Origin: Chlorobiota bacterium | Lineage (GTDB): Bacteria; Bacteroidota; Bacteroidia; Bacteroidales; F082 | Assembly: GCA_013151215.1 (NCBI GenBank) | Contig: JAADIS010000097.1 | Coordinates: 1-45,000, forward strand | DNA length: 45,000 nucleotides | Reading direction: 5' to 3' | Shown here: positions 31,270 through 35,116 of the stretch, in pieces | Layout of the letters: every line of letters begins with the position of its first letter | How positions within the stretch are numbered: position 1 is the first letter of the stretch | The notes under the pieces: model-generated | Database searches by the model: none | Told to the model about the DNA's origin: nothing | The model's input: the letters and a program-made list of their open reading frames with translations, nothing else | Program-made: the position numbers and the translations under genes

Positions 31270-32844
31270 ATGGGGAATTTAAGTGAGATTAAACGCAGGA
31301 GGACTTTTGCCATAATCAGTCATCCGGATGCCGGTAAAACAACCTTAACGGAAAAACTGCTTCTTTACGGTGGTGCGATACAGATTGCCGGGGCGGTGAA
31401 ATCCAACAAGATAAAGAAAACCGCCACTTCCGACTGGATGGAGATCGAGAGGCAAAGGGGAATTTCCGTTGCTACCTCGGTAATGGGCTTCGAGTATAGA
31501 GGCAAAAAAATAAATATCCTCGATACTCCCGGCCACCAGGATTTCCAGGAGGACACCTTTAGGACGCTTACCGCTGCCGATAGCGTAATAGTTGTTATTG
31601 ACGTGGCCAAGGGCGTGGAACCGCAGACGGAAAAGCTTGTTAAGGTCTGCAGGATGCGGAATATCCCGATCATGGTTTTTATAAACAAGCTCGACCGTCC
31701 GGGCAAGGATGCCTTTGAGCTGCTCGACGAGCTTGAGCAAAAATTAGGGCTTGCCGTTACTCCTTTGAGCTGGCCGATTGGTATGGGATCCGATTTTCAC
31801 GGGGTTTATAATATGTATTTCAATAACCTTACGCTTTTTAATCCCGGTTCGCAGGTTGTTGAGGAAGGTGTGGCCTTTAGCAGCCTCGACAATCCCGGGC
31901 TTGAAGGTTATATAGGCGAAAAAGCCATTGAACTGCGCGATGATCAGGAACTTATAAATGGTGTTTATCCTCAGTTCAATCCCGATGATTATCTTTCAGG
32001 AAAGATTTCCCCGGTGTTTTTCGGTAGTGCGCTCAATAATTTCGGCGTAAAGGAGCTGCTTGACGTATTTATTAAAATTGCGCCGAACCCAATTGGACGT
32101 GAGGCCGAAGAACGGTTCGTAGATCCTGAGGAAGATAGTTTTAGCGGTTTTGTTTTTAAGATACATGCAAATATGGATCCCAACCACCGCGACCGGATTG
32201 CGTTTGTAAGAGTGGTGTCGGGAACTTTTAAAAGAAATACGAATTATAAGCACATAAGGCTTAACAGGCAATTGAAATTTCCCAGCCCGACGGCATTTAT
32301 GGCTCAAAAGAAGTCTGTTATAGATGAGGTCTTCCCCGGTGATATAGTTGGATTGCACGATACGGGAAACTTTAAGATAGGCGATACATTGACCGAAGGC
32401 GAAAACATTAACTTTAAAGGAATGCCCAGTTTTTCGCCCGAGCTTTTCAAATATGTTGAAAATGCCGATCCCTTAAAAAGCAAGCAACTGGCAAAGGGCA
32501 TAGATCAACTTATGGACGAGGGTGTTGCACAATTATTTACCGGAAAGCATAACGGCCGTAAGATAATCGGGACCGTTGGCGCCTTGCAGTTTGAGGTTAT
32601 ACAGTATCGCCTGGAGCATGAATATGGTGCAAAATGCCGATATGAAAACATAAATCTATATAAAACCGCTTGGTTTGTTAGCGACAATATCGAGCAACTA
32701 AATGATTTCAGGGCCAGGAAAGCACTGCAAATAGCAATCGACAAAGAGGGGAGGGAAGTTTTTCTGGCCGACTCCAAGTTCGCCCTCGAAATGGCCCAAC
32801 AAAAATATAAGGACATAAAATTTTATTTTACGTCGGAATTTTAA
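31270..32844 (+). CDS. prfC: Peptide chain release factor 3
   Basis: RF3 is a translational GTPase that recycles RF1 and RF2 from the ribosome after peptide release. The 524-residue protein has G1 HPDAGKTTLTEK, switch II/G3 ILDTPGHQDFQEDT, G4 FINKLDRPG, and the RF3-specific RRRTFAIISHPDAGKT start. The later domains include FRARKALQIA and VFLADSKFALEMA near the end. Length is close to the roughly 529 residues of E. coli RF3, and the ending FYFTSEF is typical. It is transcribed alone, divergent from the sigma-54 regulator. No terminator is obvious after the stop. Confidence 0.96.
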   Translation: MGNLSEIKRRRTFAIISHPDAGKTTLTEKLLLYGGAIQIAGAVKSNKIKKTATSDWMEIERQRGISVATSVMGFEYRGKKINILDTPGHQDFQEDTFRTLTAADSVIVVIDVAKGVEPQTEKLVKVCRMRNIPIMVFINKLDRPGKDAFELLDELEQKLGLAVTPLSWPIGMGSDFHGVYNMYFNNLTLFNPGSQVVEEGVAFSSLDNPGLEGYIGEKAIELRDDQELINGVYPQFNPDDYLSGKISPVFFGSALNNFGVKELLDVFIKIAPNPIGREAEERFVDPEEDSFSGFVFKIHANMDPNHRDRIAFVRVVSGTFKRNTNYKHIRLNRQLKFPSPTAFMAQKKSVIDEVFPGDIVGLHDTGNFKIGDTLTEGENINFKGMPSFSPELFKYVENADPLKSKQLAKGIDQLMDEGVAQLFTGKHNGRKIIGTVGALQFEVIQYRLEHEYGAKCRYENINLYKTAWFVSDNIEQLNDFRARKALQIAIDKEGREVFLADSKFALEMAQQKYKDIKFYFTSEF

Positions 32845-33150
32845 GGTTTTGTCTTAACTCAGCTGATCTTGGGGTTTGCTTCCGGAACACGAAGCTGTAC
32901 CAGCAAAGAATATTGTGCCTAATATAAAGGTCTGGAAATCAATAATATATTATTCGACAAGGAGGTTTGAATATTTTGGGATTTTCACGCTATATTCCAG
33001 TAGCAACCCCTTTGTTTCCCCTTTGCCTAGATCCAAGGTCCATTTCACACTTCCTGTTTTCTCGTCAATTTTCGCCAGAGAGGTTTTAAGTAATCCAACT
33101 TCGAACGAGCTCGATTCTGATAAGGGATACCGGTCGTCGATAGTTATTCT

Positions 33151-33423
33151 ACTGAAGTTTCGCGTTTATAAATAAACAGTTGACAAGCTGCGACTTATTA
33201 AATATTGAAATACGTTAACATAATGAATATCAATAGTATATAAATTCCATAATAAGTAATATCATAATTGTGTTTCCTTGGTGTCTTAGAGTCTTAGTGG
33301 CTAATTATCAACACCTTGCCACGAAGGCACTAAGGCTCTGAGTTTCACTAAGCAATTTATATAATGTATAACCATCTGATAACAAATATATTAAGGCCTA
33401 GTGTTTGTATGCGAAACTTCAGT
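33151..33423. mobile_element. Miniature inverted-repeat element (MITE-like), 273 bp
   Basis: The ends are perfect 13-bp inverted repeats, ACTGAAGTTTCGC (33151-33163) and GCGAAACTTCAGT (33411-33423). They are flanked by a direct duplication TATTCT at 33145-33150 and 33424-33429; since the right inverted repeat ends in AGT, the repeat can also be read as 9 bp (AGTTATTCT). The interior has no credible gene and contains an imperfect hairpin (33277-33341). Excision in silico restores the reading frame of the DUF4139 remnant, which fixes the boundaries. The element has no transposase and would need one supplied elsewhere. I do not recognise the terminal sequence as a named insertion sequence family. 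Confidence 0.75.
33277..33341. repeat. Imperfect hairpin made of 8-bp units, inside the miniature element
   Basis: The left arm reads CTTGGTGT CTTAGAGT CTTAGTGG C (33277-33301) and the right arm GCCACGAA GGCACTAA GGCTCTGA (33318-33341), which is nearly its complement with a 16-nt loop. Both arms show an 8-bp period. Sequences of the form CTTAGTG...CACTAAG are a recurrent intergenic motif in Bacteroidota, which suggests that this hairpin is a repeat in its own right carried by the element. Confidence 0.6.
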
Positions 33424-33540
33424 TATTCTAATCCCGTGGTTCTTGTTGTTCTTTACATTAATTTCCCATGATATGGTTTCTTTTATTTAAAGATATTTAA
33501 AGACGGGCGAAAATGACAAAAGTTGTATCTGCATATTTCG

Positions 33541-33559
33541 TAATTTTGCCCTAAATTTG
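33541..33559 (+). promoter_or_regulatory. Two overlapping-range -7 box candidates for nadB
   Basis: TAATTTTG (33541-33548) and TAAATTTG (33552-33559) both match TAnnTTTG upstream of the ATG at 33566. A TTG at 33523-33525 is 15 and 26 bp away, neither of which is the usual spacing. The first box is the more plausible because the second would leave almost no leader. Confidence 0.35.
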
Positions 33560-33565
33560 GTTATC

Positions 33566-35116
33566 ATGTCAAAAAAGACTGATTTTTTAATAATTGGCTC
33601 GGGCATCGCAGGTATGGTTTATGCCCTTAAAGTAGCCGAGCATGGCAAGGTTATTTTAGTGTCGAAAACAAATCTTGAGGAAACATCCACTAGTTATGCC
33701 CAGGGCGGTATAGCGGCTGTGATGTATTCCCCCGACACTTACGGGAAGCATATAGCCGATACGCTAAAAGCCGGTTCGTTGATCAATAATGAAAAGATCG
33801 TCAGGATTACAATCACTGAATCGACGGAAAGGGTAAAAGAATTGATTGAATGGGGAACGCACTTTGACAAGGAGAGCTCGGGAAAATATAATCTGGCGCG
33901 CGAAGGTGGTCATTCGGAGTTCAGGATACTTCACCATAAAGACAATACCGGCTTTGAAATACAAAGGGCCCTTACTAAAACGGTGATGTCACATCCTAAC
34001 ATCAGTGTTTGGGAAAATGTTTTTACCGTCGACCTGATAACACAACATCATAAAGGGCAATTAGTTAACAGATCTACCAAAAACATTGAATGCTACGGGG
34101 CCTACATACTTGACGGGAATCATAAGATTGTTACCGTATTAGCGCGTAAGACGATGATAGCTACAGGGGGCATGGGAAATATTTATCAAACTACGACAAA
34201 CCCGGTTATCGCCAGCGGCGACGGCATTGCCATGGCTTATAGGGCAAAAGCCGAAGTCGAGAACCTTGAATTTGTGCAGTTTCACCCGACTTCATTGTAT
34301 AATCCCGGGGAAAAACCATCGTTTTTGATAACTGAGGCAATGAGAGGGTCTGGTGCGATATTAAAAACCAGGAGCGGCAAAGAGTTTATGCACAAATATC
34401 ATGAGCTGGGCTCATTGGCGCCACGCGACATTGTTGCCCGTGCCATAGATAACGAATTGAAGATATCCGGTGACGATTATGTATATCTGGACACGTCGGG
34501 AATTAGCGAGATGGAGCTTCTAAACCATTTCCCTACTATTTATGCCAAATGCTTAAAAATCGGGATAGATATTACCAAGGATATGATACCCGTTGTGCCT
34601 GCCGCGCATTATTCTTGCGGAGGAATCAAAACCGACGAGTTCGGACGCACGAGCATTAAAAACCTTTATGCATCAGGTGAGGTTGCCAGCACCGGGCTTC
34701 ATGGAGCAAACAGGCTGGCCTCCAACTCATTGCTCGAAGCGGCAGTATTCTCTCACAGAGCAGCGGCAGATGCAACAGCTAGTTTTAAAACTGTAGATAT
34801 TCAAAAGGACATACCCGATTGGGATTCTGAAGGAACGGTTCTAAACGAAGAAATGATCCTGATCACGCAATCGAAAAAAGAGCTGCAGTCGATAATGACG
34901 AACTATGTAGGTATAGTGCGCTCAAACATGAGGCTGAAAAGAGCCTACGACAGATTGACGATTATTTATAACGAAACGGAAGATCTTTATGATAAGTCGA
35001 TAATTTCAAAAGATATCTGTGAGCTCAGGAACCTGATAAATGTTGCTTATCTTGTAATTAAACTGGCTAAAAAAAGAAAACAAAGCATCGGCTTGCATTA
35101 TAGCATCGATTATTGA
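33566..35116 (+). CDS. nadB: L-aspartate oxidase
   Basis: NadB oxidises aspartate to iminoaspartate with FAD, the first step of de novo NAD synthesis via quinolinate. The 516-residue protein starts with the FAD-binding fold DFLIIGSGIAGMVYALKVAE (GSGIAG at 11-16), then STSYAQGGIAAV, FVQFHPTSLY and the substrate-domain arginine region AMRGSGA. The closing FAD contact is ASTGLHGANRLASNSLLEA. The C-terminal helical domain is present. These features and the length distinguish it from succinate dehydrogenase flavoprotein. The ATG at 33566 is preferred over a TTG at 33557, which overlaps the -7 box. nadA and nadC are not in the window. Confidence 0.95.
   Translation: MSKKTDFLIIGSGIAGMVYALKVAEHGKVILVSKTNLEETSTSYAQGGIAAVMYSPDTYGKHIADTLKAGSLINNEKIVRITITESTERVKELIEWGTHFDKESSGKYNLAREGGHSEFRILHHKDNTGFEIQRALTKTVMSHPNISVWENVFTVDLITQHHKGQLVNRSTKNIECYGAYILDGNHKIVTVLARKTMIATGGMGNIYQTTTNPVIASGDGIAMAYRAKAEVENLEFVQFHPTSLYNPGEKPSFLITEAMRGSGAILKTRSGKEFMHKYHELGSLAPRDIVARAIDNELKISGDDYVYLDTSGISEMELLNHFPTIYAKCLKIGIDITKDMIPVVPAAHYSCGGIKTDEFGRTSIKNLYASGEVASTGLHGANRLASNSLLEAAVFSHRAAADATASFKTVDIQKDIPDWDSEGTVLNEEMILITQSKKELQSIMTNYVGIVRSNMRLKRAYDRLTIIYNETEDLYDKSIISKDICELRNLINVAYLVIKLAKKRKQSIGLHYSIDY

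Follow-up and report, generated by a model that had tools for sequence, protein, structure and literature searches.

The window analysed here is a stretch of 45,000 nucleotides from a Bacteroidales genome, in which a short non-coding segment, bounded by inverted repeats, lies between the genes prfC and nadB. The locus raises the question of what kind of element this segment is and which transposase could have moved it. The original prediction, made from the DNA letters alone, described a 273-bp insertion without a transposase, flanked by perfect 13-bp ends that it could not assign to any named family. We find that the segment is a MITE: it is short, carries terminal inverted repeats, lacks a transposase, is flanked by a target duplication and occurs in several copies.

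The boundaries differ slightly from those first proposed. The 13-bp repeat is indeed perfect in the window, with ACTGAAGTTTCGC at positions 33151-33163 and its exact complement at 33411-33423. However, the outermost A/T belongs to the target rather than to the element, since a comparison of the flanks showed that the base adjoining the end in the copies L008, L082 and L068 is not the usual A/T, yet matches the opposite flank. The true ends are thus 12 bp and the element proper measures 271 bp instead of 273 bp (Table 1). The TATTCT that was said to flank the segment is present on both sides, while the duplication of this copy is 8 bp, TTATTCTA, and not 6 or 9 bp as first proposed; ends that are called one base too long mask the diagnostic length of the duplication. 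The segment was also correctly described as non-coding and transposase-less, in that it contains no open reading frame of at least 60 amino acids wholly inside the element.

Table 1. Features of the element, its central array and its insertion site in the window.
Feature	Position	Strand	Remark
MITE element, 271 bp	33152..33422	+	no ORF of at least 60 aa wholly within
Left terminal inverted repeat	33152..33163	+	CTGAAGTTTCGC
Right terminal inverted repeat	33411..33422	-	reads CTGAAGTTTCGC on the - strand
Target-site duplication, left copy	33144..33151	n/a	TTATTCTA
Target-site duplication, right copy	33423..33430	n/a	TTATTCTA
Core, left arm	33277..33301	+	8-bp units CTTGGTGT CTTAGAGT CTTAGTGG, then C
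Core, right arm	33318..33342	+	inverted units GCCACGAAGGCACTAAGGCTCTGAG
DUF4139/MuiA-like stump, C-terminal part, downstream of the insertion	32950..33150	-	stop-terminated
DUF4139/MuiA-like stump, upstream remainder	33431..33486	-	closed by in-frame TAA 33487-33489

In its own genome the element occupies 23 places, complete or broken, including the one in the window (27 BLAST pieces); four of these places are split in two, and a few that lie at contig ends may represent two halves of the same copy. The exact 13-mer occurs 22 times in this genome and its reversed control not once, which shows that the ends are not due to chance and that the element is multi-copy. To the duplication test 25 loci were entered, three of which had no pair, and the pairs L008/L082 and L010/L056 each represent one orthologous site. 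Exact duplications of 7-9 bp flank 11 of the 22 two-ended elements with 12-bp ends (six of twelve in the own genome), whereas random flank pairs agreed in 50 of 194,435 cases (0.03%). The exact duplications are 7 or 8 bp long in ten elements and 9 bp in one; another four elements have a duplication with one mismatch and seven have none. None of four further same-ended elements has an exact duplication, and one of them has 8 bp with one mismatch. The strong predicted fold of the element (z of -6.0 on the + strand and -2.9 on the - strand) would suit a dispersed regulatory or structural palindrome that does not move and has flanking repeats by chance, but this explanation is scarcely credible, being contradicted both by the frequency of exact duplications and by the homologous reading frame that is restored when the element and one duplication are removed. 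The target duplication and the further copies in the genome and the lineage instead identify the segment as a true insertion, as had been predicted.

Further copies were found both in the own genome and in relatives when the ends and the element were searched for, as the original prediction had suggested. Matches to the element were obtained in 15 of 100 genomes, its own included: G003, of the same genus, contains a full-length element, the match in G027 is at 67%, and another twelve genomes contain short pieces only, mostly of the element centre. The exact 13-mer is present in 15 of 173 genomes in the family and in 48 of 393 genomes in the order, most of which have one or two occurrences, and the reversed control matches some genomes too. 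Multiple occurrences were seen in G225 (nine), G238 (seven) and G516 (13). The copies on contigs C8 and C36 occupy the same sites in G003 (L008/L082, 94.8% identity over 3,021 bp; L010/L056, 93.7% over 3,279 bp), and the family therefore moved before these species parted. A frame of at least 100 amino acids runs across the left end in one of twelve copies (L017, the centre of which consists of N), a count that cannot separate intergenic from gene-breaking copies. A search for the element in plasmids gave no match, viral contigs gave no match to a two-ended pattern of 249-279 bp, and Rfam gave two matches over positions 32800-33800, both far below the gathering score.

Two other short elements were observed among these loci. 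One, in G238 (L157:720-793, contig C525), is 74 bp long and has both perfect 12-bp ends with almost nothing between them and no duplication. The other is an unrelated element of about 245 bp with the ends AGGGTCTGCTGAAAAA, which is nested in the copies L012 (G000:C112), L024 (C46) and L025 (C14) and, as judged by eye, has 4-bp flanking repeats, AAGT and AAAT, in two of these copies.

The site of insertion does not date the event. As predicted, NKNHGIRI and TIDDRYPL are joined in frame once the segment and one duplication are removed, and the rejoined frame, which includes WEINVKNNKNHGIRITIDDRYPL, matches the end of a long G002 open frame at 56% identity across 80 residues. The 64-residue downstream piece scores 30.9 bits against Pfam DUF4139, just under the cut-off of 31.8. 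However, the element does not lie in a complete gene, as the in-frame TAA some 19 codons upstream of it leaves only 85 codons. The insertion had been described as precisely dated by the broken reading frame, but this frame is a 3' stump that is closed upstream. Furthermore, G003, the closest relative (98% identity in the nadB protein), lacks stump and element as one block of 653 bp (32856-33508), in place of which it has 43 unaligned bases, while the adjoining DNA on either side shows 95-96% identity. In G002 and G004, too, prfC and nadB are closely spaced, and G001 is aligned on the nadB side only. The comparison of empty sites thus yielded a relative without the element, but one from which the whole block is absent and not the element alone. 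The own genome yielded no second DUF4139-like piece. The element was either inserted into the stump or arrived together with it, and nothing here dates it precisely.

The termini, which had been left without a family name, have the ends of an ISPepr1-type insertion sequence (IS) of the IS4 family. In the part of PMC2266710 consulted here, the ISPepr1 subgroup is described as having the end consensus YT-AA-YTT---A, repeats of 7-8 bp, AT-rich targets and lengths of 1500-1600 bp. The right end of the window element agrees with this consensus at eight of eight positions and the left end at seven of eight, the exception being a G at position 13, and the exact repeats are likewise AT-rich and, in ten of the eleven elements that have them, 7-8 bp long. 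The element differs from the subgroup as outlined there in that it is 271 bp long and has no transposase, but another genome contains a related 1.6-kb IS that has these ends and encodes a YREK transposase.

This IS, found by an order-wide search for the ends, is located in Bacteroidales bacterium UBA4181 (G246, DFUR01000012.1; L192), where the inverted sequence CTGAAGTTTCGCAAGT bounds 1,596 bp. It contains a single open reading frame of 485 amino acids, the sole transposase, which belongs to the IS4 family (NF049925, 397 bits; cut-off 250) and has the YREK motif, Y(2)R(3)E(6)K, at residue 361. The IS is flanked by the 7-bp repeat TATTTTT, according to our own reading across two contigs that share 20 bp. 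The subgroup name ISPepr1 rests on ends, repeats and size, while NF049925 indicates the IS4 family only. Only the 12-13 bp ends are common to this IS and the window element, whereas the elements in G027 and G048 have 16 bp, CTGAAGTTTCGCAAGT, in common with it.

The association between these ends and this transposase extends beyond a single genome. By protein search alone, 29 relatives of the transposase were found in Bacteroidales and a few other bins. The 12-mer was present, at up to two mismatches, within 250 bp upstream of the transposase in 23 of the 26 relatives checked (all except L199, L214 and L220), compared to none for the reversed and the reverse-complemented 12-mer and a mean of 0.16 (maximum 8) in 200 shuffles. 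Among 17 two-ended IS copies, four run into contig ends and only two have an exact 7-bp duplication. Within the family, five of 173 genomes contain a gene above the NF049925 cut-off. The IS copies in G011 and G212 have both ends at one and two mismatches and that in G024 at three and two, while a single end at two mismatches was found in G206, and no end at up to two mismatches was found for the partial transposase in G027. A search of the PDB with the transposase found no sequence relative at E <= 1.

From these patterns in ends, repeats and genes, the window element is most probably a MITE that is mobilised in trans by an ISPepr1-type transposase of the IS4 family, a reading to which we assign a probability of about 0.9. 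It is improbable that the element is moved by a transposase from a different family whose ends are similar, such as the IS50, IS10 or IS1634 kind. The loose end rules of IS10 (two of two) and IS1634 (three of three) are satisfied, and no partner transposase was detected in the own assembly, but it is the NF049925 group that the full 12-mer accompanies, in 23 of 26 cases. Furthermore, the duplications of 5-6 bp listed for the IS1634 kind in the consulted part of PMC2266710 are unlike the 7-9 bp seen here, and the 9 bp given there for the IS10 kind fit only one of the eleven copies.

Two other candidate parents were rejected. The variable duplications, together with the AC ends of IS982, had prompted the guess that the parent was an IS982, of which one degenerate 40-bit fragment is present in G000, at a locus without an end at up to two mismatches. 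A long open reading frame in G518 (L140, contig C123), which we take to resemble the IS50/Tn5 transposase, begins inside a same-ended element and is probably a nested insertion.

The identity of the 12-bp ends to those of a full IS could also mean that the element arose recently by internal deletion from a single IS copy and does not belong to an independently evolving MITE family. This is more improbable still, as the IS in G246 shares the ends alone, two insertions are common to two species, and the arms differ in same-ended elements of other genera. Archaeal MITEs, too, are often similar to their IS at the borders only, according to the portion of PMC3852290 that was available.

In the proposed mobilisation in trans by an ISPepr1-type transposase, the 12-bp ends would serve as recognition sites for a DDE transposase supplied by a full-length IS elsewhere. 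The transposase would excise the element at CTGAAG...CTTCAG, and the element would then be joined to a target cut with a stagger of about 8 bp, giving rise to an AT-rich duplication of 7-9 bp. We infer that the movement occurred in trans by cut-and-paste chemistry, which is the chemistry of IS10 and IS50, and that this lineage formerly possessed such a transposase.

The own assembly, which consists of 154 contigs and is 98.57% complete, yielded no ISPepr1-type transposase; the best match to NF049925 scored 37 bits, under the cut-off. A search for the ends at up to two mismatches gave 86 matches, 53 of which had two mismatches, compared to 61 for the reversed pattern, and inspection by eye revealed no facing pair of ends 0.7-3 kb apart. 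Two facing pairs that are 5.2 kb apart (C73, C118) were taken as chance. Repeats have broken the assembly, as the boundaries of contigs C28, C29, C38, C46 and C111 fall within copies, and it is possible that the partner IS has been lost from it. In G516, eight contigs (C31, C32, C47, C54, C64, C71, C74 and C111) stop 51-54 bp inside CTGAAGTTTCGC ends and have two inner sequences in common, as is typical where a multi-copy element has dropped out of an assembly; no IS4 gene above the cut-off was found in this genome.

The centre of the element contains a core, an inverted array of the 8-bp unit CTTNGWGY, with two arms facing each other around a short loop. The copies L004, L009 and L010 in the own genome differ by whole 8-bp units. 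A pattern search identified the core within same-ended elements of G003, G027, G048, G505 and G435, the last of which has a degenerate right end, and a variant core was recognised by eye in same-ended elements of G516 (two) and G299. The core is thereby spread over three families of Bacteroidales by pattern (G000/G003/G027/G048; G505; G435) and two more by eye (G516, G299). It was present in two of the 28 loci first fetched, and the loci in G435 and G505 were fetched by their ends alone. The core also occurs without these ends in G044, G072, G038 and G098. A separate arrangement was seen in G032 (L060:1407-1560), where units of this kind, in everted order, lie within an unrelated inverted repeat, GAGTCCACTCTGAAAA / GAGTCCACTCCGAAAA.

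The + strand of the element that hosts the core is predicted to fold strongly, and the - strand less so. Selection on an RNA structure in the core was considered and rejected, as none of the eight predicted pairs is compensatory. The 11 aligned cores come from a regular-expression list, which fixes most of the inner-stem letters in advance but leaves the outer units unconstrained; the free position in the inner unit is paired in five of them. An RNA hairpin thus has no support from covariation. Given that the fixed letters are repeated and the free one shows no covariation, the core may rather be an array bound by a protein. Judged from these letter patterns and from the occurrence of the array in several families, with and without these ends, it is conceivable, though doubtful, that the CTTNGWGY array is a portable module that is not tied to one MITE lineage and may be kept as protein-binding sites.

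In the literature searched, we found no earlier link between a MITE family of Bacteroidales and an ISPepr1-type transposase, and no occurrence of any of five strings taken from the ends or the core. Cardinium, a member of Bacteroidota, contains a comparable element. This element, MITECca01, is about 240 bp long and derived from an IS982 element (PMC9769881, consulted in part); like the window element it has no transposase, IS-type ends and a similar size, but its ends are those of another IS family and its parent is described in the same genome, whereas none was found for the window element. The MITEs of Porphyromonas gingivalis, including BrickBuilt, are also hosted by a member of Bacteroidales and have ends of about 12 bp, and BrickBuilt has an internal tandem repeat (available part of PMC4596501). 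However, the ends reported there are of the IS5 family, and BrickBuilt has direct repeats of 23 nt rather than an inverted array of 8-bp units. The window element represents a MITE family that is new but belongs to a known kind, with the ends of a known IS type. A MITE family in Bacteroidales would thereby be tied to an IS4 transposase of the ISPepr1 type, and the recurring inverted array of 8-bp units at its centre is an oddity that can be tested.
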